From: Actinomycetota bacterium
GTDB lineage: Bacteria; Actinomycetota; Actinomycetes; JACCUZ01
DNA length: 37,512 nucleotides
Reading direction: 5' to 3'
Assembly (NCBI GenBank): GCA_030841035.1
Contig: JAVEDI010000104.1
Coordinates: 73,445 to 110,956, forward strand
In this document: piece by piece, positions 23,434-37,404 of the stretch
Position numbering within the stretch: the stretch's first letter is position 1
Layout of the letters: every line of letters begins with the position of its first letter
Program-made: the position numbers and the translations under genes
Notes under the pieces: model-generated
The model's input: the letters and a program-made list of their open reading frames with translations, nothing else
Database searches by the model: none
What the model was told of the DNA's origin: nothing

Positions 23434-23520
23434 GGTGGCGTGTCCGAGCGGCCGAAGGAGCACGCCTCGAAAGCGTGTGAGGGTTCACGCCCTCCGTGGG
23501 TTCAAATCCCACCGCCACCG
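23434..23520 (+). tRNA. tRNA-Ser (anticodon CGA)
   Basis: An 87-base cloverleaf. The acceptor stem ggtggcg (23434-23440) pairs with cgccacc (23513-23519), with discriminator G at 23520. The anticodon arm is cacgc-ctcgaaa-gcgtg, giving CGA. A long variable arm (gagggttcacgccctc) marks class II serine tRNA, and the T-arm ggttcaaatcc is intact. The bases after it (23521-23523) read CCA, so the 3' CCA may be encoded. Confidence 0.96.
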
Positions 23521-23533
23521 CCAGCCAGCCGTC

Positions 23534-23573
23534 GGCGACATTCCCGCAGGTCAGAGGCCTGTGGGATGTCGCC
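23534..23573 (+). terminator. Hairpin terminator after tRNA-Ser
   Basis: ggcgacattcccgcagg (23534-23550) pairs with cctgtgggatgtcgcc (23558-23573), with one bulge and one mismatch around a seven-base loop. It starts 14 bases after the tRNA. Confidence 0.65.
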
Positions 23574-23964
23574 GAAGTGCTGTTTCGCTGAAGGCGCGCG
23601 ACGCGCCCTCTTGTTCGGCGAAGCCGTCGACCCCGACGCGCCTACAGCACCCACGCTGCTGATGCTGGGTGAACATTGGACGGTGGAGTCGACGCTCGAG
23701 TTCGGGCTCCTCCGGCCACCACGGCGCTCGATCCCACCGCCGCCCCAACTGCCCCCGTTCGTCCGGTGGGATCTGCGGGCCCCCTGCGTCCACGCGCGTA
23801 CGCGCCCGGGTCTCCTGTCGGACCAGCCGCAATCAGCCCGATCGGACCAATCTCCGGACCGGGCCCAGTTGCCGGGAACTTTCCCAGCCGCCCACGGGAC
23901 ACCTGCTTCGACAACGGTGATCATCCAGCGGCCTCGGCACACCCACCTACCCGGGAGCACACTC
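23574..23964 (+). other. Non-coding leader of the secreted-protein gene
   Basis: About 390 bases between the tRNA terminator and the next ATG. A small stem (ggcgcg-cga-cgcgcc near 23597) is seen. The frame is open but codes only a Pro/Arg-rich, unrecognisable string with no signal peptide. A promoter for the gene at 23965 must lie here; no clear -35/-10 could be fixed. Confidence 0.4.
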
Positions 23965-25371
23965 ATGAACGTCCATCTGCGGCGCAGCGCGAAGTACGGC
24001 CTTCCCGTCGTTCTGGCCGTCTTTCTCATCCCGGCCGCGGCCATCGCGCACCCGACGGTGTACTCGACCAGCGGTCACCTCAACGGCGGCATGACCAACG
24101 AGGTCTGGACCCTGACGGCACCCACGACCGGCACCTACCAGCCGTCGGCCAACGCCGCGGTTATCCCGTTCGATGCCCCGAGCCAAGTGGTGGAGTGGGC
24201 CCTCGGCAAGGACGCGGCCATCGGGGTCAACGCCGCCACCCGCCTGCCCAACGTCCTTGTGACCGGCGCGGCTCCGAGCTTCACTCTGCAGTTCCAGGGC
24301 GCCCGGGGAAAGGTCGACGTGGCTGATGCCGTCGTCTCGCCGACCGCCGGCTCGGCCGCGAAGGTGCGCGACGGAGGGATCGCGGTCAGCTACCCGACCA
24401 GCATCCCCGCCGACCAGAGCTACGCCCGGTACGTCGTGGGCAGCGACGGTTACGCGGCGGTTCTCACCGAGGCCAACGGCCTGGCGCAGAACGGTTGGCT
24501 GGACCTGGCGCAGAACCCCGGGACCTATCGCAACAGCGAGACGCCGGCCCAGTGGCTGACGCTCGGAGTCACCGGGGCACAGACGCATGCGACGTGCTGG
24601 CCGGTCGACCCCGCAACGGCCGGCGGCGCCAAGCTGAGCACCCTCGACACGACAGATGACAACATCCTCGCCGTCCAGAACTGGAAGAAGGAGCACCCGG
24701 CCGACCCGGTCCAGCCGTTCTGGAACTACGTTCCCTGGCAGTCGTCCGGTGCCGGCTTCGGTGACACGCCCGATCAGTGGATCGCCACGGTCAAGGCCGT
24801 GACGGGCGTGGACCTGACCGGGATGTCGGTGGCCACGGCTGCTGCGGCGTGCGAGGCCGTCGGAGGAGCCTACGTACCGGCGGACACCGCCGGCTCGCAC
24901 ATCGAGCAGGCGTTCACAGCTGACCAGGTGACCGCGGCGGTGGCTCCGCTGACCGCTCGGATCGACGGGTTGACCGCGGCGAACCAGGGCCTGACCGCGC
25001 AGGTGGCGGCCCTGACGCAGAGTCTGGCGGACGCATCGGCAGCGAACAGCCGTCGCCCGCTCACGGTGGCGATCGGCGGGCGGCGGATGCCGTGGACGAG
25101 TCCGGCGGTCATGGTCACCGGTGCGCCCGGCGCCCGCGTGTCGGTCCGGACCGTCGTGTCGAAGGCGCTCGCCAAGCGGCTGCGACTGAAGTCCCGTGTC
25201 GTCGGTAGCGTCTCCAAGCCCCTGACCGCTCAGGGCGCCGTGCTCGTCACCGTCAAGCCGACGAAGGCCGCATCGAAGGCGCTGCGCGCCTTCCACGGCA
25301 AGATCCGGGTGACCTATATCGTCCGGTCCGGCTCGGCCTCCGCGTCCGCTACAGGCACGCTCGTCCACTGA
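23965..25371 (+). CDS. Secreted protein with predicted mature N-terminal His and coiled coil
   Basis: A 468-residue exported protein. ATG 23965 has GGGAG nine bases upstream. The signal peptide is MNVHLRRS...VFLIPAAAIA with cleavage expected before His29, giving a mature start HPTVYSTSGHLNGG. A roughly 280-residue globular part follows with two Cys (ATCWPVDP, AAACEAVGG), many Trp and NWKKEHPADPVQPFWNYVPWQ. Next is a short heptad coiled coil (TARIDGLTAANQGLTAQVAA, near residues 330-365), then a C-terminal beta domain rich in Val, Arg and Lys. I do not recognise a named family. The mature N-terminal His and the CopC/YcnI neighbours make copper binding possible. Confidence 0.78.
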   Translation: MNVHLRRSAKYGLPVVLAVFLIPAAAIAHPTVYSTSGHLNGGMTNEVWTLTAPTTGTYQPSANAAVIPFDAPSQVVEWALGKDAAIGVNAATRLPNVLVTGAAPSFTLQFQGARGKVDVADAVVSPTAGSAAKVRDGGIAVSYPTSIPADQSYARYVVGSDGYAAVLTEANGLAQNGWLDLAQNPGTYRNSETPAQWLTLGVTGAQTHATCWPVDPATAGGAKLSTLDTTDDNILAVQNWKKEHPADPVQPFWNYVPWQSSGAGFGDTPDQWIATVKAVTGVDLTGMSVATAAAACEAVGGAYVPADTAGSHIEQAFTADQVTAAVAPLTARIDGLTAANQGLTAQVAALTQSLADASAANSRRPLTVAIGGRRMPWTSPAVMVTGAPGARVSVRTVVSKALAKRLRLKSRVVGSVSKPLTAQGAVLVTVKPTKAASKALRAFHGKIRVTYIVRSGSASASATGTLVH

Positions 25372-25377
25372 CGCACC

Positions 25378-25419
25378 CGCGGGTGTGGGCGACGGCACCG
25401 GCCGTCGCTCACACCCGCG
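25378..25419 (+). terminator. Strong hairpin between secreted-protein and CopC genes
   Basis: Arms of 18 bases (25378-25395 and 25402-25419) pair completely except for one G-T wobble, around a six-base loop. It starts six bases after the stop codon and ends 28 bases before the copC-like ATG, so it can act as a terminator or an attenuator for the copper genes. Confidence 0.8.
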
Positions 25420-25446
25420 CGTGTCCACTCTGCAAGGAGATCCGCC

Positions 25447-25824
25447 ATGCCCACCACCCTGCGACTGGCCTCGCGTGCTGCGACCGTCGTGCTTCTGTTG
25501 TTCGGCCTTGGCATCACACCGGCGTCCGCGCATGTCAGCGTGAAGTCCACCAGCCCCACCGCAGGTACTGTCCGCAGCTCACCGCCGAGGAGCGTGTCTG
25601 TCACGTTCAGCGGGCCGATCCGGGGCGGCACTCTGAGGGTCGTCGGCCCGCACGGAACGACGGCGTCCCGCGGCTCGGGCGGGCGTGACCCCCGCAACGT
25701 CACACGGCTGGGCGTCGACCTCAGGTCACGGCTGGGGGCCGGACGGTACACCGCGCGCTGGAGCGTCGTCGCCGCCGACGGACACGCGGAAGCTGGTCTG
25801 TTCCGGTTCCGGGTGCGGAGGTAG
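25447..25824 (+). CDS. CopC-family copper-binding protein
   Basis: A 125-residue exported protein. ATG 25447 has AAGGAG upstream. The signal peptide ends at ITPASA and the mature protein starts with His29 (HVSVKSTSPTAGTV). The CopC copper ligands are all present: the N-terminal His, Asp111 and His113 (VVAADGHAEAGLFRF). It would bind Cu(II) outside the membrane. The usual CopD/YcnJ membrane partner is not encoded here. It is followed by a YcnI-type gene six bases later, so the two are probably one operon. Confidence 0.92.
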   Translation: MPTTLRLASRAATVVLLLFGLGITPASAHVSVKSTSPTAGTVRSSPPRSVSVTFSGPIRGGTLRVVGPHGTTASRGSGGRDPRNVTRLGVDLRSRLGAGRYTARWSVVAADGHAEAGLFRFRVRR

Positions 25825-25830
25825 CGCGGC

Positions 25831-26541
25831 ATGCCACACGGCACACGAGGCCGCGGGGCACGACCCGCTGCCGTTGTTGTCGCGGTCGTCTCGCTCGGGG
25901 TGATAGCTGCCTCGCCGGCAGAGGCACACATCCAGGTCACGCCCACGGTGGCCGCGCCGGGCGACGCGGTGCGGTTCACCTTCCTGGTGCCGAACGAACG
26001 TGACACCTCGACTTCCAAGATCCAGGTTGCCGTCCCCAAGGGCGTGCTGGCGTTCTCGTTCGCGGACGTCGCGGGTTGGAAACGATCCGTCACGCCGGCC
26101 CCCGACGGCTCCACCGGCACCATCACGTGGACCGGCCACCTGGCATCCGACGGCTTCGTCGAGTTCAGCATGCTGGCCTCCACGCCGACGGCTCCGCAGG
26201 ACCTGACGTGGAAGGCGTTGCAGTTCTACCAGGGGGACCCGAAGCCGGTCCGGTGGATCGGCACCCCGGACTCGCAGTTCCCCGCGGCAGTGACACATCT
26301 GCGTCCCGACGCTGCCCAGCAGAACGCGGGCGGGGGAGGCGTCCAGGGCGCCGCAGCGCCGTCCGCTGCCGCTAGCGGCACGCCGCCACAGACCTCGCCA
26401 CAGACCTCGCCGCGGGCGAGCAGCGGCATCGACTCCTCAGCGAGCGACCCGGTCGCGCGCACGCTGGGCGGGGTCGCGGCCGCGGCTGCTCTCGGCGCCC
26501 TGGGGCTTTCACTGGCATCTCGTAGGAGGCGACGGCCATGA
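25831..26541 (+). CDS. YcnI-like (DUF1775) copper-binding membrane-anchored protein
   Basis: A 236-residue protein. The signal peptide ends at SPAEA and the mature protein begins at His33 (HIQVTPTVAAPGDAVRFTF). The DUF1775 domain (residues 33-165) has FLVPNERDTSTS with Glu56, VAGWKRSVTP with Trp83, TITWTGHLASDGFVEFSML and WKALQFYQGD. Bacillus subtilis YcnI binds Cu(II) with its N-terminal His and a Glu, so the same is likely here. A Ser/Pro/Gln-rich linker with PPQTSPQTSP repeats leads to a C-terminal membrane helix and an RRRRR tail. Its stop overlaps the next start (ATGA). Confidence 0.92.
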   Translation: MPHGTRGRGARPAAVVVAVVSLGVIAASPAEAHIQVTPTVAAPGDAVRFTFLVPNERDTSTSKIQVAVPKGVLAFSFADVAGWKRSVTPAPDGSTGTITWTGHLASDGFVEFSMLASTPTAPQDLTWKALQFYQGDPKPVRWIGTPDSQFPAAVTHLRPDAAQQNAGGGGVQGAAAPSAAASGTPPQTSPQTSPRASSGIDSSASDPVARTLGGVAAAAALGALGLSLASRRRRRP

Positions 26542-27701
26542 CAACCGACGTACGAAGGAAAGTGTCCGCGTGGCTGGCCGTCGCCTCGGTGCTGGTGGCC
26601 GGATTTCTCGCCGCGACCGACGCCGCGGCGGCAGTGGCCGCGCCCGCGCCGTGTGGTGGCGTGCCCCAGATCACCGATGTCTCCGGCGACGGACACCACA
26701 GCTCCTCGGACGTTTTGGCTGCGTGGCTGTCCGAGCCGGCGGTGGGTGCGCTGCAAGCGACGATCCAGGTCAAGTCCGGATCCTGGTTGCCGGAGCATGA
26801 CGACGCGGTCATCAACGGCTCGGGTTTCGCGTTCCTGTTCACTGCGGGCGCCGAGACGCACTACGTGCGGGCGACCGCACCCCCCGCGAACGGCGGGGTC
26901 CTGCTCTACGACTATGGGACCTGGACGCTGGCGGGCGGCTTCCAGCGCGCGGGTGACACGACCGGAAGCATCGTGCCCGGCCCATCCGGGACGGTGACGA
27001 TAGATGTGCCGGCCGCGACCGGGACAGCGATCGGGACCAGGCTGACCAACCTCTTCGTCCTGACCTATGACGGCATAGGCGTGGACGGCCCCACCTGGGT
27101 CGACCGCGCCCCTGGCGGCACAGTCCCCACCGAGGACTCCACCTTCGGCGCCGACTTCCTGGTGGGAGCGTGCTCGTCCCCACCGCCCGCCGGCGCGGCC
27201 TCGGTCCAGCTGAGCGCAGGCACGGTTCCCGTCGGTGGAGGAGCGGTGGCCGTGTCCGGGCGGGTCCTCCCGCCCCGCGCAGGGGTGGCAGTGTCCCTCG
27301 CCCGCGTCGCACGGCGCAGTCTCGTCTCCCGCTTCACGACCGTGGCCGATGGCACGTTCTCTGGGTTCATCCCGGTGAGGGAGGCGACAGTGCTGCGGGC
27401 CGTCGTCGAGGGCGTGCAGTCGCAATCCCTGTCGCTACGGGTGCGATCCAGGATCTCGGTGCGCGCGCATCGAGTGCGCGGCACCTGGGCCTTCACCGGC
27501 GACGTTGCGCCCGCGCTGCCCGGCCGGCTCCTGCTCCTGCGCGTCGGCGGCTTCACACCGGTCAAGCGCGGGCGCATCGTGACCGGTCACCGCTACACGA
27601 TGCGCGTCCGGGACCTCGCCAGGGGCCGCTACCAGATGGTCTGGCTGCCGACCGGCGGCCGCGCCGACAGGGCGGTCTCCCGAACGATCCGGGTGCGGTG
27701 A
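26538..27701 (+). CDS. Secreted protein with C-terminal Ig-like domain, coupled to ycnI-like gene
   Basis: A 387-residue exported protein, ATG 26538, overlapping the ycnI-like stop by four bases. The signal peptide is about 36 residues (WLAVASVLVAGFLAATDAAA). An N-terminal beta-rich domain (residues 40-215) has two Cys at its ends (APCGGVPQ, VGACSSPP), an ITDVSGDGHHSSSDVLAAWL segment that could bind a metal ion, and LTNLFVLTYDGIGVDGPTW. The second half is Val/Arg-rich with two Ig-like beta domains. No named family. The overlap with a copper gene suggests a part in the same outer-membrane-face process. Confidence 0.75.
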   Translation: MTTDVRRKVSAWLAVASVLVAGFLAATDAAAAVAAPAPCGGVPQITDVSGDGHHSSSDVLAAWLSEPAVGALQATIQVKSGSWLPEHDDAVINGSGFAFLFTAGAETHYVRATAPPANGGVLLYDYGTWTLAGGFQRAGDTTGSIVPGPSGTVTIDVPAATGTAIGTRLTNLFVLTYDGIGVDGPTWVDRAPGGTVPTEDSTFGADFLVGACSSPPPAGAASVQLSAGTVPVGGGAVAVSGRVLPPRAGVAVSLARVARRSLVSRFTTVADGTFSGFIPVREATVLRAVVEGVQSQSLSLRVRSRISVRAHRVRGTWAFTGDVAPALPGRLLLLRVGGFTPVKRGRIVTGHRYTMRVRDLARGRYQMVWLPTGGRADRAVSRTIRVR

Positions 27702-27731
27702 AGTAACGCCCGAACGATCGACACCCACCGC

Positions 27732-27760
27732 CAGCTGCCCCAGTGGGGTCCGGGGCACTG
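27732..27760. terminator. Convergent terminator hairpin
   Basis: cagctgcccc (27732-27741) pairs with ggggcactg (27752-27760) apart from one bulge, between the convergent secreted-protein and GGDEF genes. It can serve both directions. Confidence 0.5.
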
Positions 27761-27772
27761 CCGCGTCCGACC

Positions 27773-27831
27773 CGTTCGATAGGCGCGTGGTCGCGCGGAA
27801 CCGCCCGCGGCAGCCACCGGCCTATCGAACG
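27773..27831. terminator. 12-bp perfect inverted repeat at the GGDEF gene end
   Basis: cgttcgataggc (27773-27784) and gcctatcgaacg (27820-27831) are exact complements. The right arm covers the last codons and the stop of the minus-strand GGDEF gene. The 35-base GC-rich loop has further pairing. Confidence 0.5.
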
Positions 27832-28781
27832 TCGGGAAGGAGGGGGAGGACGGTCGTCTGGGAGCCGGCGGGCGGGGCGGTTGCCAGGATCCGGTTCCGT
27901 CCTCCCGCCTTCGCTGCGTACAGCAGGGTGTCGGCGGCGCGCACGAGGTCGTCGGCCGAGCTCACCGGTCCGACGGCACAGCCACCGCTGACCGTGATGG
28001 CGACGTGCTGCCCTTCCGCGGTGATCGATGCACCGGCGGTGCTGAGACGGATCCGCTCGGCGACCTGCATCGCGCCGTCGCGACCGGTGCGAGGCAGTAC
28101 GACGAGGAACTCCTCGCCGCCCCAGCGCCCGGGGATGTCTCCGACCCGCAGCCCGTCACGGAGCAGCTGCGCGAACTCCGCGAGTACGACGTCGCCGGCC
28201 GGGTGCCCGTAGGTGTCGTTGACGCGCTTGAAGTGGTCGATGTCGAGCAGCAGCAGACACAGCTGGTCGTGGTGCCGGCGGGCCTCGTCGTGATGGCGCA
28301 CAAGCTCCTCTTCGAGGTGCCGTCGGTTGCGAAGACCGGTGAGGACGTCGGTCCGGCTCAGCCGGTCCAGGTCGGCGTTTCGTTCCCGGAGCTGGTCTTG
28401 CAGCTTCTTGACGTTCAGGGCCGCCGTGACGCGGGCCACCAGCTCTGCCGGCTCGAACGGCTTCTTGAGGTAGTCGTGTGCGCCGCCCCGCAACCCCGCG
28501 AGGACGTCGTCCATGCTGGTCCGGTCGGTGAGGAACACGACGGGCACGTCTCTGAGCTCGACGTCGCTCTTGAGCTCGGCGAGCACCTCGTAGCCGTCGA
28601 GCCCGGGCATCTCGATGTCCAGCAGGATGACGTCCGGCGGTGACTCGTGGCACTGCGCGATGGCGTCCTCGCCGTCCTCGGCCTCGACGACCCGGTGTCC
28701 CGCGGTCTCCAGATGGGCGCGCACGACGGCGCGCACGACCAGCGAGTCGTCGGTGATGAGCACGGTGGCTGCGTCCGTCAT
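27822..28781 (-). CDS. REC-GGDEF diguanylate cyclase (WspR-like)
   Basis: A 319-residue response regulator that would make cyclic di-GMP from two GTP. The receiver domain (1-120) has DD11-12, phospho-acceptor Asp55 (ILLDIEMPGLDG), and Lys106/107 (DYLKKPFEP). A short coiled linker (NVKKLQDQLRERNADLDRL) leads to the GGDEF domain with DVLTGLRNRRHLE, the active-site GGEEF at 221-225 and an inhibitory site RVGD at 212-215, exactly five residues before. ATG 28781 overlaps the stop of the cheR-like gene (ATGA). It is the last gene of the chemosensory operon and its likely output. Confidence 0.95.
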   Translation of the reverse strand: MTDAATVLITDDSLVVRAVVRAHLETAGHRVVEAEDGEDAIAQCHESPPDVILLDIEMPGLDGYEVLAELKSDVELRDVPVVFLTDRTSMDDVLAGLRGGAHDYLKKPFEPAELVARVTAALNVKKLQDQLRERNADLDRLSRTDVLTGLRNRRHLEEELVRHHDEARRHHDQLCLLLLDIDHFKRVNDTYGHPAGDVVLAEFAQLLRDGLRVGDIPGRWGGEEFLVVLPRTGRDGAMQVAERIRLSTAGASITAEGQHVAITVSGGCAVGPVSSADDLVRAADTLLYAAKAGGRNRILATAPPAGSQTTVLPLLPDVR

Positions 28782-30004
28782 GGCGTCAGCTTGGCGTCGA
28801 CGAGTCGAAGGAGCTCCTCCGCGGCGTAACCGCCGATGGCCTCTTCGACCGGAGCGTGGTCGGTCTCCTGCAGCGCCCGACGTGCGGCGCCGAAGGCTCG
28901 CTGCGCCGAAGGCAGGTCGCCGGCCGCCTCCAGGGCCAGTCCGAGGTGCAGATGGGCGAGCGCGTCGTCGTGCGCGAAGAAGGCCCACTTGCGGAAGTGC
29001 ACGACGGCGCTCTGATGGTCACCTGCCGCGAGGGCTCGCTGTCCTGCCTCGCCCAGGGCGGCGACGGCCGCGGCGTCGGCGTCCGGGACGAGCCGCGTGC
29101 CCGCCGCGGCCGGCGTGGCGCGCCGGGCCGGCTCGGGGTGTGGGGTGACGGGCTGGACGGCCTGGGCACGGCTCCCGCCGTCCTCACTGGTCCGCTGCAC
29201 CCGCCGTACGGCGGTCCTGGCGCGCCGCGGCCGGTAGGCATAGGCCTCGCCCATCCGGACGGTCTCGTAGCGGTCGCTCACCGGCCAGATCGCCTCGGCC
29301 GAACCGAGGAACAGCCAGGCGTCGGGGAGGCCGTCGGCCAGGCGATCCAGGACTGCACGGGTGTGCTCGGGCGAGAAGTAGATGAGGACGTTGCGGCAGA
29401 AGACCACCTGGCAGGAGCGGACCTCGTCGGGCAACCCGTCCACCAGGTTGTGGCGCGCCGTGGTGACCCGGTCTCGCAGCGACTGGTTGATCTGCCAGCC
29501 CTTGCTGGTGGCCGTCATGTGACGCGTGACCCGGTCCGGGGACAAGCCGTTGATCTCGCGCGACAGGTACTGAGCGGTCGCCGTCCGCTGCAGCGCCGAC
29601 GTCGACAGGTCCGTCGCGACCACCGTGCCGGCGACGCGGTTCTCGTCGAGCAGCATCGCGAGGCTGAACGCTTCTTGGCCGTTTGCGCAGCCGGCGCTCC
29701 AGATCCGCACCGGGCGGGAGAGCCGCGGCAGGATGGCGCTCGCGAGGATCTCGAAGTGTTCCGGATGACGGAAGAAGCCTGTCTCCTGCACAGTGATCCG
29801 ATTGAGCAGGTTCTGCAGATTGCGCCCCGTGACGGACAGGCTCTGGAGGTAGCTTTCCAGGTCTCCCTCGTGCAGAACCGCCTCGTCGCGGATGCAGCGG
29901 CGCAGTCGGCTGCGCAGCGACGCCTCGGGTCGCAGGCCGATCCGCGAGCGCAGCAGATCGGCGACCCTGTCCACGACCTCCTCCGAGGGCAGCCCCCGGC
30001 TCAC
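28778..30004 (-). CDS. CheR-type MCP methyltransferase with C-terminal TPR (WspC-like)
   Basis: A 408-residue enzyme that methylates glutamates on the chemoreceptor using S-adenosylmethionine. The N-terminal helical part ends in TVQETGFFRHPEHFE. The SAM-binding motif is RIWSAGCANGQEAFSLAM (about 100-117), slightly changed from the usual GCATGEEPYS, and VVFCRNVLIYFSPE (about 200-214) is typical. A Pro/Arg-rich linker leads to a TPR-like region (residues 320-408: AGQRALAAGDHQSAVVHFRK...ALAHLHLGLALEAAGDLPSA). GTG 30004 overlaps the cheB stop (GTGA) and has GGAGG upstream. The TPR tail is what WspC-type CheR proteins have. Confidence 0.93.
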   Translation of the reverse strand: MSRGLPSEEVVDRVADLLRSRIGLRPEASLRSRLRRCIRDEAVLHEGDLESYLQSLSVTGRNLQNLLNRITVQETGFFRHPEHFEILASAILPRLSRPVRIWSAGCANGQEAFSLAMLLDENRVAGTVVATDLSTSALQRTATAQYLSREINGLSPDRVTRHMTATSKGWQINQSLRDRVTTARHNLVDGLPDEVRSCQVVFCRNVLIYFSPEHTRAVLDRLADGLPDAWLFLGSAEAIWPVSDRYETVRMGEAYAYRPRRARTAVRRVQRTSEDGGSRAQAVQPVTPHPEPARRATPAAAGTRLVPDADAAAVAALGEAGQRALAAGDHQSAVVHFRKWAFFAHDDALAHLHLGLALEAAGDLPSAQRAFGAARRALQETDHAPVEEAIGGYAAEELLRLVDAKLTP

Positions 30005-31044
30005 GTGCGCACCTCCGCCACCGCCTTGCAGATCGCCGCGGCCAGCTGCTCCGGGGCGAGCAACCGGGTGACGGCGCCGAGGCGCTGGGCCGCCCGCGGC
30101 ATACCGAACACCGCGCACGAGGCCTGGTCCTGCGCGAAGGTCTGGCCACCCTGCTGGTACAGCTCCAGCAGTCCTTGCGCCCCGTCCTCGCCCATCCCGG
30201 TCAGGACGACGCCGACGCCGGCGGACCGGGCTTGCGTGGCGACCGATCGCAGCAGCTCGTCGGCTGAGGGGCGATGCAGCGTGTCGGGGGCAGCGCCCAG
30301 CTCGAGACGACCGCCTGTCCCCAGGCGCAGATGGCAACCGGCCGGTGCGAGATAGACCCGCCCGGGTCGAGCGACCTGGTCGTGCCCGGCGATCTCCACC
30401 GGCAGCGCCGAGACTCGGTTCATCCAGTCCAGCAGGCCGCTGATGAAGTCGGCATGGATGTGCTGCACGACCAGGACCGGGGCCCGCAGGCCGCCGAGGC
30501 CGGACAGGATGGTCGCGAGCACGCTCGGACCGCCGGTGGAGGCGGCGAGCGCGACCACCGACTGCCTACCCCTCGGGGAAGCCGGTCGGCAGAGCGCGGT
30601 CCTCGGCAGCACGCCACGTGGGTGACGGATCGTGCTCACCTGGCGGATCCGGCGAACGCTGCGACGTAGCTCGATCTCCAGCTCTTTGGTCCAGCGGGCG
30701 GGCGTGGGCAGGGCGTCGAGCGCGCCCGCCACCACAGCCTTGACCGCGGTAGGGGAGTTGCGATCGGCGATCCGCGATGAGAGCACCAAGATCGGTGTCG
30801 GCGTGCGCGCCATGATCTGCTCGATGACGTGCTGTCCGCTGCCGTCGCTCAGCTGCAGGTCGAGGATCACCACGTCCGGACGGTCCTTGGCGACGAGCGC
30901 GATGGCGGCGGCACCGGTGGACGGCTGGCCCGTGACGCGGATGTCGCCGTCGCGTTGCAGGATGCGGGCCAGGTCACTGGTCGGGTCGGACGGGTCCTCG
31001 ACGAGCACTGCTCTGATCGGGCTGGCGGGCATCGCTGCGGTCAC
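30001..31044 (-). CDS. CheB-type methylesterase (WspF-like)
   Basis: A 347-residue receiver-esterase that removes methyl groups from the receptor. The receiver has Glu16/Asp17 and phospho-acceptor Asp62 (VVILDLQLSDGSG), but the conserved Lys is replaced: the place of KP reads ALPTP with Thr114. The methylesterase triad is complete: Ser169 (ALAASTGGP), His195 (VVQHIHADF) and Asp287 (GMGEDGAQG). The linker 120-160 is Arg-rich. GTG 31044 overlaps the cheA stop (GTGA). It may be controlled in an unusual way because of the missing Lys. Confidence 0.94.
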   Translation of the reverse strand: MTAAMPASPIRAVLVEDPSDPTSDLARILQRDGDIRVTGQPSTGAAAIALVAKDRPDVVILDLQLSDGSGQHVIEQIMARTPTPILVLSSRIADRNSPTAVKAVVAGALDALPTPARWTKELEIELRRSVRRIRQVSTIRHPRGVLPRTALCRPASPRGRQSVVALAASTGGPSVLATILSGLGGLRAPVLVVQHIHADFISGLLDWMNRVSALPVEIAGHDQVARPGRVYLAPAGCHLRLGTGGRLELGAAPDTLHRPSADELLRSVATQARSAGVGVVLTGMGEDGAQGLLELYQQGGQTFAQDQASCAVFGMPRAAQRLGAVTRLLAPEQLAAAICKAVAEVRT

Positions 31045-33083
31045 GTCCTGCCGCCGATGAGGCGACGTACCGCCGTGAGCAGGCTGCCCTCGTCGAAGCC
31101 GCTCTTGATGATGTAGCCGTCCGCTCCGGCGTCGAGTCCCCTCCGTCGATCGGCCTCGCTCGACCGAGAGCTGAGGATCAGCACCGGGATGTTCGCCAAC
31201 GACGGATGGGCCCGAACGGCCTCAGTCAGCGCGAAGCCGTCCATGTTCGGCATCTCGATGTCGGTCAGGATCAGGTCGCTCGGTTCCTCGGCCAGCTTCG
31301 AGAGGGCGTCCGCGCCATCGGTGGCAACGCGTACCCCGAAGCCGGCCCGCTCAAGGATGTTGCGCTGCAGCTCGCGGACGGTCAGAGCGTCATCGACCAC
31401 CAGGATGCTCCGCTGCGGCGTGCCACCTGAGGGCGCTGCAACGGCCAGCGGGTCACCGCGCTGGGCCTGGCGGGCCCGCTGGATGAGACCAGGTGGGTCG
31501 AGCACCACGAGGATGGAGCCGTCCGGCTCGACGCTGGCGCCCGCGACGGCGGGCAGAGGGGGCAGCAGTCGGTTCAGTGCCTTGAGCACGACGTCTCGCT
31601 GGCCTACCAGCTGGTCCACCTGGAACGCGTGTCGACGTACGGCGTCGGTCAGCACCACGATCGGCCCACGACTCGGTTGCGTGGAGCCCAGGCCGACCGC
31701 GTCGGCCATCGACGACACCGGCACCGCCTGGTCGTCGACCCAGACCATCGCACGCCCCTCGGCGCGGGTCTGGCTCGACTGGTCGAAGCCCTGAGAGAGC
31801 ACCACGCGGTGGAACGGCAACGCGAAACGCTGACCGGCCGACTCGACCAGCAGGCAGCGCAGCACCGCGAGGGTGATGGGCACGATGATCCGGAACTCGG
31901 TTCCCGCGCCCGGCCGAGAGCGCACCTCGACGCGGCCGCGTGCGGCCTCGACATTGGTCCGCACGACGTCGAGCCCCACGCCCCGACCGGACACGTCGGT
32001 GACGAACGTCGACGTCGAGAGGCCGGAGTGGAACACCAGCTGAAGTGCGTCCTCGTCACTCATGTCCTGGGTGCCGACGCCCTGACGCGCTGCTTGTTCA
32101 CGCACGCGTGCGAGGTCGATCCCGTCACCGTCGTCGGTGATCGCGATGATGACTTCCGACCCGAGCTGCATGGCATGCAGCCGCACGTTGCCCTCCGCCG
32201 GCTTGCCGGCTGCCGTCCGCTCCGCAGCAGGCTTGATGCCGTGGTCCACAGCGTTGCGGACGAGGTGCAGCAACGAGTCCGACAGCTGCGTGAGAACGCC
32301 GCGGTCCAGCTCGGTGTCCCCGCCGCGTACCTCCCAACGGACCTGCTTGCCCTGAGCACGCGACAGGTCGCGCACCGCGCGCTGGAGCTTGTCCGTGACC
32401 GTGGCAAGCGGCACCATCCGGGCGCGCATCGCCCGGTCCTGCAGGCCGTTCAGGGACCTGGAGAGCTCGTTGAACTCGGCGTTGGATGCCGCGTCGAGGC
32501 CGAAGCTGTCCTTCAGCATCCGGCCGACCCGCAGATGAGCGGACGCGGACTCACCGATCAGGCGGACCATCTCGTCCAGCCGTTCCATCGGCACCATCAC
32601 GACACCGTGCGCGTCGCTGGACGACGGGTCTGGCGCGCGTGCCGTCAAGCCGTTGTGGGCCGGTACGACGTCGCGTGGTGCGGCCACCACGCCGACGGCC
32701 ACCGGAGCCTCAGCCGCCGTCGCGCTGTCGGTGTCGAGGACGTCCGCCGTCACGTCGTCGCCGAGCGCGGAGGCGATGACCGTGCCGAGCCGGTCGGCGC
32801 CGGCGAGCAGCGTGTCGATGACCTCGGGGGTCACGGTCTGACGTCCGGCCCTCAGGTCTTCGACGATCTCCTCGAGCTCGTGCGCCAGCCGGCTCACATC
32901 GGTCAGACCAGCAACGGCCGAGGAGCCCTTCAGGGTGTGCAGCTCGCGGAAGACAGAACGGACCAGCGTCTCCTCGTCGCCGGTCTGCTCGAGCTCGAGC
33001 AGTAGCTGATCGAGGTGCGTGAGGCGAACCTCGGCCTCCTGCGCGAAGAGCGCACGGATCTCGTGCACGCCCAGGGCGGCCAT
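31041..33083 (-). CDS. CheA-REC hybrid histidine kinase (WspE-like)
   Basis: A 680-residue kinase. The HPt domain holds His49 (FRELHTLKGSSAVAG). A short variable linker (110-160) lacks a CheY-binding P2. The dimerisation and ATPase domains follow with RMVPLATVTDKLQR, HLVRNAVDHGIKPA (N-box), ITDDGDGIDL (G1) and SGRGVGLDVVRTNVE (G2). A CheW-like regulatory domain is next, then a C-terminal receiver with Asp608 (LILTDIEMPNMDG) and Lys660. The fused receiver is a mark of Wsp- and Frz-type systems. It would phosphorylate the CheB and GGDEF regulators. ATG 33083 shares one base with the cheW stop (TGATG). Confidence 0.96.
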   Translation of the reverse strand: MAALGVHEIRALFAQEAEVRLTHLDQLLLELEQTGDEETLVRSVFRELHTLKGSSAVAGLTDVSRLAHELEEIVEDLRAGRQTVTPEVIDTLLAGADRLGTVIASALGDDVTADVLDTDSATAAEAPVAVGVVAAPRDVVPAHNGLTARAPDPSSSDAHGVVMVPMERLDEMVRLIGESASAHLRVGRMLKDSFGLDAASNAEFNELSRSLNGLQDRAMRARMVPLATVTDKLQRAVRDLSRAQGKQVRWEVRGGDTELDRGVLTQLSDSLLHLVRNAVDHGIKPAAERTAAGKPAEGNVRLHAMQLGSEVIIAITDDGDGIDLARVREQAARQGVGTQDMSDEDALQLVFHSGLSTSTFVTDVSGRGVGLDVVRTNVEAARGRVEVRSRPGAGTEFRIIVPITLAVLRCLLVESAGQRFALPFHRVVLSQGFDQSSQTRAEGRAMVWVDDQAVPVSSMADAVGLGSTQPSRGPIVVLTDAVRRHAFQVDQLVGQRDVVLKALNRLLPPLPAVAGASVEPDGSILVVLDPPGLIQRARQAQRGDPLAVAAPSGGTPQRSILVVDDALTVRELQRNILERAGFGVRVATDGADALSKLAEEPSDLILTDIEMPNMDGFALTEAVRAHPSLANIPVLILSSRSSEADRRRGLDAGADGYIIKSGFDEGSLLTAVRRLIGGRT

Positions 33084-33529
33084 CAGGCCACCCCGCTCGG
33101 CGTGGTGTCCTCACGGCTGCTCGCCGCGCCGAGCCGCTCGGACGCCAGGAGCGCGTCAGGGTCCAGCAACACCACGATCTGTCGCTGCACCCGGTAGGTC
33201 CCCGCCGTGCCGGGCAGCTCCGATGGCCCGGTGGAGACGCCCAGGGTGGCCCGTTGCGGGAATGCGGTGGCGGCCAGCCCGACCAGTCCGCGCGGCGACT
33301 GCAAGACCACCGCGAACGCGACCGGGTCGCTGCCGTTGAGCCCCAGCAGGTGCGCCGTGTCGAGCAGCGGCACGATCTGGCCCCTCAGGTTGAACAGGCC
33401 GAGCACCAGCGGCGGGGCGGTCACCAGCGGGGTGAGGGGCGGCGCCGCCACCACTTCTCGCACCCAGCCGACCGGCACGGCGTACATGTCAGCACCCACC
33501 GGGAGCAGTACCGCCTGCTCGCCGGTCAT
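33083..33529 (-). CDS. CheW-type coupling protein
   Basis: A 148-residue adaptor linking receptor and CheA. The CheW fold is visible: [41 protein letters not shown] (the typical G-x-x-NLRG-x-I-x-P-x-x-D) and [18 protein letters not shown] 33529 overlaps the receptor gene stop (ATGA). Only one CheW gene is present; the Pseudomonas Wsp system has two. Confidence 0.93.
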
Positions 33530-35517
33530 CGGTGCTCGTTGCCCGAGCCTGCTGAGGCGGCTGCGGTCTCCAGGTTGCCGGCGAGGTCGGCCAGGTCGCC
33601 GGCCGCGGAGGCGATCTGCTGCGCCGTGGCCGAGACCTGGCGGCTCGCGTCGGTGAGCTGCTCCATCGTCTCCACGACCTGGGCGGTGGCGCTGCGCTGC
33701 TGCTGCGTGGTGAGGCGAACCTGGCCGTTGGCGTCGGTGACGGCCTCGAGCAGCAGCAGGCCCTGCTGCATCTGCTTGGCGCCCTTCTCCATGGCCATGA
33801 CCGTGGCGTTGGACTCGCCCTGAACGGCGGCCACGATCGCCGCGATGTCGCCTGCCGAGGCCTTGGAGCGCTCGGCCAGCCGGCGTACCTCGTCTGCCAC
33901 GACCGCGAATCCCCAGCCGTTCTCGCCGGCACGGGCCGCCTCGATCGCCGCGTTGAGGGCCAGCAGGTTGGTCTGGTCGGCGATGTCGTTGATCAGCACG
34001 AGCAGGGCGTCGATGTCATTGACGCGACCGGCGAGGGCCAGCGTCCGCTCGCTGGACAGGATGATGTCTGCCTCGGCCTGTTCCAGGTTCTGCCTGGTCT
34101 CCGCGGTCTGCCGGGCGACGTCGTCGACGGTGTCGGCGATCGCCATCGACGCCCGCGCAAGCTCTTCGGTGGTCGCGGTCGCCTGGGTGATCGCCGCGCT
34201 CTGCTGGGTGGTGGTGGCGGCCAGTTCGTCGGAGGACGCCGACAGCTCCGCCGCCGCCGAGTTCACGTCCACGCCTGCCGTCGTGACCTGTTCGAGCAGC
34301 TGCTGGCAGGTGGCCAGCATGGCGTTGAACGACTCGGCGAGCACGGCCAGCTCGACGGGTCCCGACGGCTGCGCGCGGACCGAGAGGTCACCGTGGGCGA
34401 CCCGTCGCGCCACGTCGGTCAACCCGCGGACCGGACGCGTCGTGCCCCAGGCCAGGGCGGCCGAGCAGCACACCGCCAGAAGGCCGCCGAGCACCACGAG
34501 GAGCGCCGCTCTGTGGCGTTGGCTGGTCACGGGAGCGAGCACCCGGGAGGCATCGTCCTGCGCGATCAGGACCCAGTGCAGGGCATCGACGACGTCGTAG
34601 CCGCCGATGACATCGTGTCCCTCGAGGTCGGTGAACCGGACCGTGCCCGGTTGACGGGTCGCGGTGGCGCGGCGGATCGCGGCGTTGTCCACCTTGGTGG
34701 TGAGCGCACCCGCGGCGAGCAGCGCGGCGTCGCCGTGCAAGCCGTGCATGTCGTCGGTGTCGTAGATGACCCGGCGCTGCGAGTCGACCACGACGACCTC
34801 ACTGCCCTGACCCAGCTCGGGGTCGAGCAGGACTCCAAGCGCGGCGAGGTCGAGGTGGCCGACCACGACGGCCTGCACCCGTCCGCCGGCGTCCAGCACC
34901 GGTTGGGCGATGATCCACTGGAGGTGGTCGCCCTTGCGGACCAGGGACGTGAGGACCGGCGTGCCGGACGCGGCGGTGCGGAACCAGTCCTGCGCGGCCG
35001 CGCTTGCGGGAGAACCGGTGCCGCTGGAGGCCACCGGCTTGCCGCTGAGGTCGACGATGTCGATGCCCAGGTAGCCGGGGTTGATCCGGTCGATCCGGGT
35101 GATCAGCGCCTCGCTGGCGGGGCTGTCCGGCCGGCCCGAGACCGTGCCGGCGATGGCGCGCATGTCGAAGCGGCGCTCCGAGAGCCAGTCCTCCAGCCGC
35201 AGCGTCAAGGCGCGCGACACCGTGACGCCCTTGAACTCGGCCGCCGCGGTGAGGCTCGACGACGACTCCGCGGTCAAGACCAGGGCGAGCGCGATCATCA
35301 AGGGGAGCGACACCAGCAACATCGCGGCCACCAGCCGGATGCCCAACCGGTGCGGCAACGATCGCCAGCGGCCTCCTGTGCTCGTGCGCCTGTCGGCCCC
35401 TACCGCAGGACGGTGAGGGGGCGCGACAGGGGCAGCCAGCGGCGACCGCGACCCCCGGGACGCCTCGTACCGGGCAGGCGGGGCCTCTGGCGGGGCAGGC
35501 CGTGTGTCGGTGCTCAT
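33526..35517 (-). CDS. Methyl-accepting chemoreceptor (WspA-like position)
   Basis: A 663-residue receptor. ATG 35517 has GAGGA five bases upstream; a GTG at 35547 has no site. It has a Pro/Arg-rich cytoplasmic N-terminus of about 58 residues, TM1 near 61-82, a large external sensor of the Cache type ([57 protein letters not shown]), TM2 near 325-348, HAMP, and the signalling domain. The conserved hairpin tip [20 protein letters not shown] and [15 protein letters not shown] are clear. There is no C-terminal CheR-binding pentapeptide. The signal sensed is unknown. It is the first gene of the operon. Confidence 0.95.
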
Positions 35518-35568
35518 CTGGTCCTCGCGCGCGATTGCAGGGCTCACGACAAACCGTCGTTACCCGCC

Positions 35569-35594
35569 CATCGACACGGATGGCCTATTCCTGA
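35569..35594 (-). promoter_or_regulatory. Possible sigma-28-like promoter of the chemosensory operon
   Basis: On the minus strand TCAGGAA (35594-35588) and GTCGATG (near 35575-35569) are about 13-15 bases apart. They resemble TCAAG/TAAAG and GCCGATA boxes of FliA/WhiG-type promoters, about 50 bases upstream of the receptor start. The match is loose. Confidence 0.25.
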
Positions 35595-35598
35595 ACTA

Positions 35599-35633
35599 AC
35601 CCGGACGTCCCGGGTGCAGGCGAGCGGCTCGCC
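35599..35633 (-). terminator. Two adjacent hairpins after the coiled-coil gene
   Basis: ggcgag/ctcgcc (35619-35624, 35628-35633) and acccgg/ccgggt (35599-35604, 35610-35615) form two six-base-pair stems, 13 bases past the stop of the minus-strand gene at 35647. They likely separate it from the chemosensory operon. Confidence 0.5.
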
Positions 35634-35646
35634 CGGCAACGGCAGG

Positions 35647-36324
35647 TCAGCGGCGACGGCGGCTGTCCGCGTGCACGCTGCCGTCGATCTCCGGCGGCTC
35701 GTCCTCGCCGCGGCGACGCAGCAGGCCGACACCGGGCAACCCCGTGACGACCCGGCGCAGGTCCTCCACCACCTCGAGCAGCTCGTGGACGTCCGGACCG
35801 ACCCGGTCGAGCTGGCGCAGCATCGGCAGCACGTCGCCCTCGAGGTGGTCGAGCACGACCGGCATGCGGTCCACGAGGGAGATGGCCGCGTCCACCTCGG
35901 CGGTCGAGAGCGAGGCGGCGAACCGTTCGGCGGCCGGCGCGAGGTGGCGCAGCGGCTTCTCCCAGGTGGTCAGCAGCACATCCAGGCGGGTGATCAGGCC
36001 GGACGCGCCGTCGACCGCACGGCCGGCGTCCCGTGCCGTGATGGCGGTGACCTCCAGCGTGCCGGCGACGCGCGACACCGCGTCGGTCGCGTCCGTGCTG
36101 ATCTGCTCGGCGTGCGTGACCGTGAGGTCGGCGCGGGCGAGGATGGTGTCGGTCTGGTCCAGTGCGGCCTCGGCGCGGTCCAGCAGCGCCTCGAGGCGGG
36201 TCATCGCCGCAGCCGCCCGCGGGACCAGCTCGACCGCGGCGAGGACTCCGTCGCGCACCGCGGCGGCGGCGCCGAGGACCTGGAAGGGGCTAGGGACCTG
36301 CAGAGGGACCAGAGGTAGCCGCAC
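35647..36324 (-). CDS. Coiled-coil protein of unknown function
   Basis: A 225-residue, mostly helical protein. The middle (residues 35-190) has long heptad-like stretches with many Ala, Leu, Asp and Glu (for example LEALLDRAEAALDQTDTILA and LRQLDRVGPDVHELLEVVED). No membrane segment or signal peptide is evident. The Arg-rich C-terminus (RRRGEDEPPEI...SRRRR) could bind nucleic acid or membranes. GTG 36324 has GAGG eight bases upstream. It lies 45 bases after the LytR_C gene, so the two may be one unit. A family name could not be given. Confidence 0.75.
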   Translation of the reverse strand: MRLPLVPLQVPSPFQVLGAAAAVRDGVLAAVELVPRAAAAMTRLEALLDRAEAALDQTDTILARADLTVTHAEQISTDATDAVSRVAGTLEVTAITARDAGRAVDGASGLITRLDVLLTTWEKPLRHLAPAAERFAASLSTAEVDAAISLVDRMPVVLDHLEGDVLPMLRQLDRVGPDVHELLEVVEDLRRVVTGLPGVGLLRRRGEDEPPEIDGSVHADSRRRR

Positions 36325-36369
36325 GGGGGTACCTCTTCCCCGCGGTGCCGCGGCTCAGTCCACCGTAGG

Positions 36370-36936
36370 TCAGCAGCCCGCAGGACGGGTCGCGGGACTC
36401 GGGGCCAGCGCGGCTCGCGCGGCCGCCGGAGGGCGCAGCGCGGTGAACGACGACCCGAGGACGAGGTCCACCGTCGCGTCGCGACGCTGGTCGCGCACAG
36501 CGACGTACCGCCCGATCTGGGCGGCCACCGTGCGCGCGGCCGCGGCTCCCGCCACGCTGGAGCGCACCTCCGCGACACCGGCCACGGGCCGCTTCGCGGG
36601 GTCGTTGGCGATCTGGCCGACCCGGAAGCCCCGTCGGCGCAGCTGCGACGCGACGGCGGCGGCCAGGCCCCGGCGTTCGGTGGCGTTGAAGACGTTCACG
36701 CGGACCGTCGTTGCTGCCGGCGCGGCAGGTGCCGTGGTCACAGCCGGGCAGCTCGCAGTCGCTGCGGCGCGGGAGCTGCCCGCGGGTGGCGAGCTGGCGC
36801 GCTCGGTCCACCACCACCAACCACCGGCGGCGACCGCGGCGAGAACGGTGGCCACCAGCAGCGAGCCGAACGTACGCCGCGCGCTGGGCCGCCGTACCGC
36901 GCGCGCCCCCACGCCCGGAGGCGTCAGCATGCTCAC
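36370..36936 (-). CDS. LytR_C domain membrane-anchored protein
   Basis: A 188-residue protein with a short basic cytoplasmic N-terminus, one membrane helix (FGSLLVATVLAAVAAGGWWWW) and an Ala/Pro/Thr-rich spacer. The LytR_C domain is TTVRVNVFNATERRGLAAAVASQLRRRGFRVGQI...VAEVRSS...VAAQIGRYVAVRDQR...VDLVLGSSF. This domain occurs at the end of LCP cell-wall ligases or alone, as here, outside the membrane. GTG 36936 and ATG 36930 are both possible starts; neither has a clear ribosome site. A tandem repeat lies just upstream. Confidence 0.88.
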   Translation of the reverse strand: MSMLTPPGVGARAVRRPSARRTFGSLLVATVLAAVAAGGWWWWTERASSPPAGSSRAAATASCPAVTTAPAAPAATTVRVNVFNATERRGLAAAVASQLRRRGFRVGQIANDPAKRPVAGVAEVRSSVAGAAAARTVAAQIGRYVAVRDQRRDATVDLVLGSSFTALRPPAAARAALAPSPATRPAGC

Positions 36937-36940
36937 CGAC

Positions 36941-36985
36941 CACGCCGCCCACGCTGCCCACGCTGCCCACGCTGCCCACGCTGCC
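36941..36985. repeat. Five 9-bp tandem repeats
   Basis: The unit cacgctgcc occurs five times in a row; the first copy differs by one base (cacgccgcc). The repeats lie four bases upstream of the minus-strand LytR_C start, in its leader. Confidence 0.9.
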
Positions 36986-37035
36986 CCGAGGAGCCGGGAC
37001 GCGGGTCACTCATGAAGCCGAGGGTAGTGAGCGAC

Positions 37036-37344
37036 TCAGCCGGGCAGCTGCAGGATGCGCGCGTGCAGCACGTGTCGCTGCTGGAGCGCGGCGCGCAACG
37101 CGCGGTGCAGGCCGTCCTCGAGGTAGAGCTCGCCCTGCCACTGCACGACGTGGGCGAACAGGTCACCGAAGTACGTCGAGTCCTCGGCGAGCAGGTGGTC
37201 GAGGTCGAGCTCCCGCTTGGTCGTGACGAGCTGGTCGAGGCGTACCTGCGTGGGTGCGACTGCACCCCACTGGCGCTGCGTGTAGCCATGGTCGGGGTAC
37301 GGCTTCGTGTCACCGACGGCCTTGAAGATCACCCGCACCAGCAT
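37036..37344 (-). CDS. Conserved actinobacterial protein (about 100 aa)
   Basis: A 102-residue protein, ATG 37344. Conserved-looking segments are PDHGYTQRQWGAVAPTQVRLDQLVTT, LDHLLAEDSTYFGDLFAHVVQWQGELYLEDGLHRAL and QQRHVLHARIL. I recall this family as commonly placed beside LytR_C genes in actinobacteria and sometimes labelled as a VapB-type antitoxin. No toxin gene is adjacent, so I do not take the name as a function. The ELYLEDGLHRALRAAL part resembles ParB-like nuclease-domain wording (knowing an address by ...DGxHR). Confidence 0.8.
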   Translation of the reverse strand: MLVRVIFKAVGDTKPYPDHGYTQRQWGAVAPTQVRLDQLVTTKRELDLDHLLAEDSTYFGDLFAHVVQWQGELYLEDGLHRALRAALQQRHVLHARILQLPG

Positions 37345-37404
37345 AAGGCGACGTCGTCGGGGGAGCAGCCTGGGCGGGGGCGGCGGCTCGGCGTGGGTAC
37401 GCAG

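Follow-up and report, generated by a model that had tools for sequence, protein, structure and literature searches.

A family of secreted proteins with a predicted mature N-terminal histidine whose genes recur beside CopC and YcnI genes in two classes of one bacterial phylum

Secreted proteins that bind a metal with the histidine at their mature N terminus are a kind already known, and CopC, YcnI, DUF4198, DUF6702 and the anglerases are described as examples (PMC12537917). CopC (PF04234), which also occurs as a domain of CopC-CopD/YcnJ, is a small Cu(II) protein. In YcnI (DUF1775; PF07987) the mature N-terminal histidine is joined by a ligand glutamate, and for the protein of B. subtilis a mono-histidine brace with His and Glu as ligands and a cushioning Trp is reported (PMC8424229). 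Exchange of Cu(II) between YcnI and a CopC domain is reported as shown in B. subtilis, and the same source calls the acquisition of extracellular copper by bacteria poorly known (PMC12362106). DUF4198, DUF6702, Ang-1 and Ang-2 are secreted proteins that, as described, were found by their conserved mature N-terminal histidine and bind Cu or Ni, the anglerases Ang-1 and Ang-2 being fused to HupE/UreJ permeases (PMC12537917). Secreted proteins with an N-terminal histidine have proved to act as carriers of metals or as copper oxygenases, and here we describe two further families that are tied to this group by gene order.

The genes lie on the + strand of a stretch of 37,512 nucleotides from an actinomycetotal genome (the whole stretch is called the window). 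P1 (23965..25371; 468 amino acids) is followed by a short CopC (25447..25824), YcnI (25831..26541) and P4 (26538..27701), which overlaps YcnI by four bases; the first three reading frames were found where the original prediction had placed them. Since the gaps are only 75, 6 and -4 bases, the arrangement suggests one operon. A gene for tRNA-Ser (CGA; 23434..23523, found by ARAGORN) lies on the same strand, and the block starts downstream of it. An alternative, longer reading of P1 from 23440 runs over this tRNA gene, and therefore 23965 is the likely start.

By their sequences the CopC and YcnI of the block are ordinary members of their families. CopC matches PF04234 with an E value of 1.1e-18 (68.4 bits, curated cut-off 23.3) and reaches 50.4 against the NCBIfam equivalog copper_CopC, which is under the cut-off of 95. 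Its His29, Asp111 and His113, that is the N-terminal histidine and the Asp-x-His pair, are kept and align with the solved CopC 6nfq; we take these three residues to be the ligands. YcnI matches PF07987 with an E value of 1.5e-16 (61.6 bits, curated cut-off 25); His33, Glu56 and Trp142 are kept and align with 7me6, and a C-terminal membrane anchor is seen by eye. These alignments agree with the claim that the histidine of both proteins is part of a Cu(II) site.

Signal cleavage had been proposed to leave histidine as the first residue of all three proteins. Indeed, P1, CopC and YcnI each carry an A-x-A motif followed by His and preceded by a basic n-region and a hydrophobic stretch, and the predicted sites (marked by a slash) are ...AAAIA/HPTVY in P1 (His29), ...TPASA/HVSVK in CopC (His29) and ...SPAEA/HIQVT in YcnI (His33). 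The sites were placed by the sequence pattern and by relatives: YcnI chains of known structure start at the equivalent histidine, two solved CopC-type chains start at the equivalent residue, and members of the P1 family align at the residue that follows the cleavage motif, despite unequal lengths of their signal peptides. The predicted signal peptide of P1 comprises 28 residues (23965..24048; A-I-A/H), which would make His29 (24049..24051) residue 1 of the mature protein (His1). For CopC and YcnI the N-terminal histidine is a trait of the family, and P1 is the informative case. A mature N-terminal histidine is rare, with a background of about 2-3%. In the training set of SignalP 6.0, 2.6% of the proteins with a signal peptide are given as having it (PMC12537917). 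A rough home-made predictor found it in 2 of 72 proteins in stretches of the window's own genome, some of which were chosen for holding CopC, and both cases were CopC. A second rough predictor gave 3/160 for the same genome, including one apparent false call and one NicO-type transporter. The latter (L057:9473-11068), with a predicted mature start HPLGN, is perhaps Ang-2-like, which is a guess.

P1 had been said to lie outside known families. This holds for Pfam (no match up to E 1) and NCBIfam (no match) with the window protein, and members of the family that were searched are in neither collection; 12 of them gave no match to PF04234 or PF07987 up to E 0.1. It does not hold in the sense of an orphan, because relatives are present in another class. 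Within its own order (8 genomes), class (393 genomes; 345 in the profile search) and phylum (396 genomes), no believable relative of P1 was found outside its own genome. The empty phylum search with the single sequence has little weight, since it missed a true member (G484). Initial searches of genome contigs, viral contigs, phages and plasmids gave no relatives either, those of the contigs being limited to close relatives. Of 299 genomes in a search centred on the class of genome G641, which may be Thermoleophilia, 10 matched at E <= 1e-3, the best with an E value of 1.6e-22, and nine of these hold real relatives; the tenth, G792 (E 6.4e-4; L099), was dropped as its locus has no P1-like reading frame. 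With a profile, 24 of 399 genomes of that class matched, 16 of them (18 genes) over the N-domain, and the other 8 only from model position 232 upwards, which were not counted as members. The samples of 299 and 399 genomes overlap, so that their counts are not additive, and the identical proteins of G1094 and G946 were counted once. Some weak matches in the own class and phylum (L004, L008, L017, L018) were rejected as frames over or beside other genes or as failing in tblastn, and the remaining ones among L002-L008, judged by match range alone, were short and fell on the linker or C-terminal part. A match to rotavirus VP4 was taken as an artefact of the coiled coil. Profile searches gave no clear relative of P1 among solved structures. 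Literature searches brought up no P1- or P4-like protein, a weak negative since families without names cannot be searched by name. By sequence, P1 is a member of a real, undescribed bacterial family.

The alignment has 18 rows, 17 relatives and the window protein. Full-length members consist of a signal peptide, an H-[PG]-x-[VI] start (with A or V for H in some), an N-domain, a linker or coiled coil and a C-terminal beta domain. The coiled coil that the original prediction had noted recurs across the family as a coiled-coil-like linker between the two domains, variable in the alignment; in the window protein it is a predicted helix of residues 319-361 (24919..25047), modelled at low confidence. 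The C-terminal beta domain (25048..25368) is common to the aligned rows and reaches a pLDDT of up to ~84. The AlphaFold model of P1, made from the single sequence, has a mean pLDDT of 42 and is otherwise too poor to interpret. An extra stretch of ~95 residues (24073..24357, edges approximate), shortly behind the mature N terminus, is found in the window copy only. Tyr156, Gly162, Glu169, Asn171, His208, Cys211, Trp240, Tyr255, Gln259, Trp272 and Cys296 of the N-domain (window numbering) are invariant in all 18 rows.

A lack of conserved residues near the N terminus of the first protein had been named as a ground for rejecting the prediction; here the H-[PG]-x-[VI] start is kept in 14 of the 17 rows that can be scored (L133, truncated by the end of its contig, has no score), and none of the three exceptions belongs to a copper cluster. 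Position 1, as placed by the predicted cleavage, is His in these 14 rows, Ala in L093 and L095 and Val in L135. It is the histidine alone that was replaced, since all three keep the following Pro-Ser-Val. The tree has two changes of His1, each at loci without the cassette; a test would need more than two independent pairs. Position 161 of the window protein is Asp (24445..24447); among the 14 rows with His1 it is His in 11 and Asp in three, whereas the three rows without His1 have Asn, Gly and Asp. This position, within an N-[H/D]-G motif, is a candidate second ligand, although the pairing with His1 is not clean owing to the Asp of L135. Glu169 and His208 are invariant in the rows without His1 as well and may for this reason have a structural role.

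Compared with the described systems, P1 resembles CopC in being secreted with a predicted mature N-terminal His, but there is no sequence relation between the two; P1 has no Asp-x-His pair in the place where CopC has it, and it has in addition a linker or coiled coil and a C-terminal domain. With YcnI it shares a predicted mature N-terminal His and an invariant Glu, but it neither matches PF07987 nor shows a C-terminal membrane anchor by eye. Its conserved N-terminal His is the trait by which DUF4198, DUF6702 and the anglerases were found, but P1 is a free secreted protein and is in this set apart from the permease-fused anglerases as they are described (PMC12537917); Pfam searches found neither a HupE/UreJ permease domain nor domains of the DUF4198 or DUF6702 type in P1 and the aligned members. 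An ATCUN copper motif was ruled out, as mature residue 3 is Thr and not His.

The gene neighbourhoods connect P1 to copper proteins. The 14 rows with His1 all have P4 in the vicinity of P1, and 11 of them have a short CopC there; of the three rows without His1, none has P4 or CopC nearby (Fisher p 0.0015 for P4 and 0.029 for CopC, with gene presence entered by hand and kinship ignored). In 12 of the 18 rows a CopC gene lies directly next to P1. The order varies: P1-CopC-YcnI-P4 in the window, P4-P1-CopC in L088, L089, L090, L130 and L131, P4-P1-CopC-YcnI in L134 and in G974 (the latter joined from the contigs L096 and L137 solely on the basis of reading order), P1-P4-CopC in L091 and L092, and CopC-YcnI-P4-P1 in L094; the contig of L133 stops at P1-CopC. 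Several loci also encode, close by, a long protein that bears CopC, an additional CopC or YcnI, and a further secreted protein that starts with His. Three loci (L097, L098 and L132) have His1 and P4-P1 but neither CopC nor YcnI in the 15-18 kb read. The loci of L093 and L095, two of the rows without His1, hold a PBP_like_2 or BPD_transp_1 transport gene, which we read as phosphate uptake. A coincidental conservation of His1 is unlikely, because His1 goes together with the recurring copper cassette.

Other neighbours were recorded as well. Genes for nitric oxide synthase oxygenase are found just upstream of two P4-P1 pairs without CopC (L097:4029-5300, L098:4764-5993), and in L089 and L090 a P450 gene comes after the cassette. 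A SCO1-type protein (L137) and small c-type cytochromes are, by eye, encoded next to the cassette (L137:5112-5756, L137:6842-7267, L090:1724-2110, L130:2608-3003), a hint of a link to respiration.

P4 is a second secreted family without a name. Cys39, His53, His54, His87 and Cys212 are invariant in 12 aligned rows, and the HH...H residues may form a metal site of their own, which would make P4 a second new metal protein. Its N-domain matches no Pfam family, the window protein found no match in NCBIfam, and no clear relative was found among solved structures; the C-terminal part resembles common beta-sandwich domains. A search of 98 related genomes with P4 gave no match outside its own genome, but it matches 13 of the loci of P1 relatives (duplicates left out). 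AlphaFold on a part of P4 with the single sequence gave a mean pLDDT of 33, too poor to be read. As judged by these searches, the P1 and the P4 families are both undescribed. Yet another secreted family without a name adjoins CopC/YcnI (L020:10476-11234, L021:3141-3929, L090:4955-5629, L094:14637-15380; also L089, L130 and L137). Its predicted mature start is H-[KEQD]-...; all 7 copies that could be read have His after the cleavage motif, and one more, in L088, is unreadable. The L090 copy has an FHDHRIHW stretch, and no Pfam family was found for these proteins.

The likeliest origin of the window's cassette is a transfer to a position next to a tRNA gene. The gene order up to tRNA-Ser(CGA) is common to the window, G001, G006 and G007; behind it G006 and G007 have different genes, and the contig of G001 ends ~600 bases on. 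G001, a 93% complete genome of the same genus, gave no match to P1. In the CopC tree the window protein groups with cassette CopCs, in a set of 14 rows whose other 13 members come from the other class (SH-aLRT 97) and which lies apart from the remaining CopCs of its own genome, and the window YcnI likewise groups with the other class (SH-aLRT 93). No integrase was noticed. From tRNA-Ser(CGA) to tRNA-Ser(GGA) the window spans ~13.9 kb (23523-37404) with the cassette and chemotaxis-like genes, and the corresponding distance is ~2.5 kb in G007; G006 has a heavy-metal P-type ATPase ~2.3 kb after the first tRNA.

From these data we propose, with slightly more belief than doubt, that P1 represents a family, so far undescribed, whose secreted members bind Cu(II) via His1 and work with CopC, YcnI and P4 in a relay to importers. 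Once the signal peptide is removed, His1 would chelate Cu(II) with its free amino group and its imidazole, and the likeliest further ligand would be the His/Asp at position 161, perhaps together with the invariant Glu169. Together, P1, the short CopC, YcnI and P4 would make up an extracytoplasmic cassette whose role is to capture or retain Cu(II) on the outer side of the membrane and to exchange this copper with CopC and YcnI; these two would feed CopD-type importers. Such importer genes are found beside the cassette in several relatives. The block in the window has none, but an importer is at hand, because CopC-CopD fusions are present elsewhere in the genome. That CopC and YcnI of the cassette keep their Cu(II) ligands supports this proposal; the three loci with His1 but neither CopC nor YcnI count against it.

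The main rival is that P1 is itself a copper enzyme, LPMO-like or otherwise oxidative, which is loaded with copper by CopC and YcnI and has P4 as a substrate- or surface-binding partner. The N-terminal His-Pro/Gly, the aromatic residues that are invariant and a Cys-bearing domain with a conserved HATC motif would suit such an enzyme, and the P450 and nitric oxide synthase genes hint at oxidative chemistry nearby. But profile searches of solved chains found no sequence relation to a solved LPMO or oxygenase up to E 1, the other invariant residues of P1 remain where His1 is gone, and other non-LPMO families with an N-terminal His are described as carriers (PMC12537917); we consider an enzyme unlikely. 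That His1 binds Ni(II) or Zn(II) instead, with copper genes as incidental neighbours, would fit the preference for Ni(II) described for the N-terminal His of DUF4198 (PMC12537917) and some weak profile hits, at the level of chance, to proteins that bind nickel (4ofl, E 0.22). It is decidedly unlikely, as CopC and YcnI recur near P1 in different gene orders and in two classes, and no nickel gene was recognised by eye among the neighbours. A coiled coil and a C-terminal beta domain would also suit a surface or structural protein whose conserved His has no role in metal binding, and the three members without His keep the other invariant residues; but this is quite unlikely, as the His is present in 14 of 17 rows, compared with a background of ~2-3%, and is missing only outside the cassette. 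It is tempting to go further than the copper relay and to speculate that P1 and P4 are a new two-protein extracellular copper device, with P1 as a histidine-brace protein assembled by its coiled coil, an HH...H site of its own in P4 and a cassette that moved between classes, possibly of oxidative function; we regard this as rather improbable.

Taken at the level of the genes, gene order links two families without names, P1 and P4, with CopC and YcnI, and it does so in two classes of one phylum. The relatives that have no His1 and live outside the cassette are natural controls, and this makes the role of His1 directly testable.
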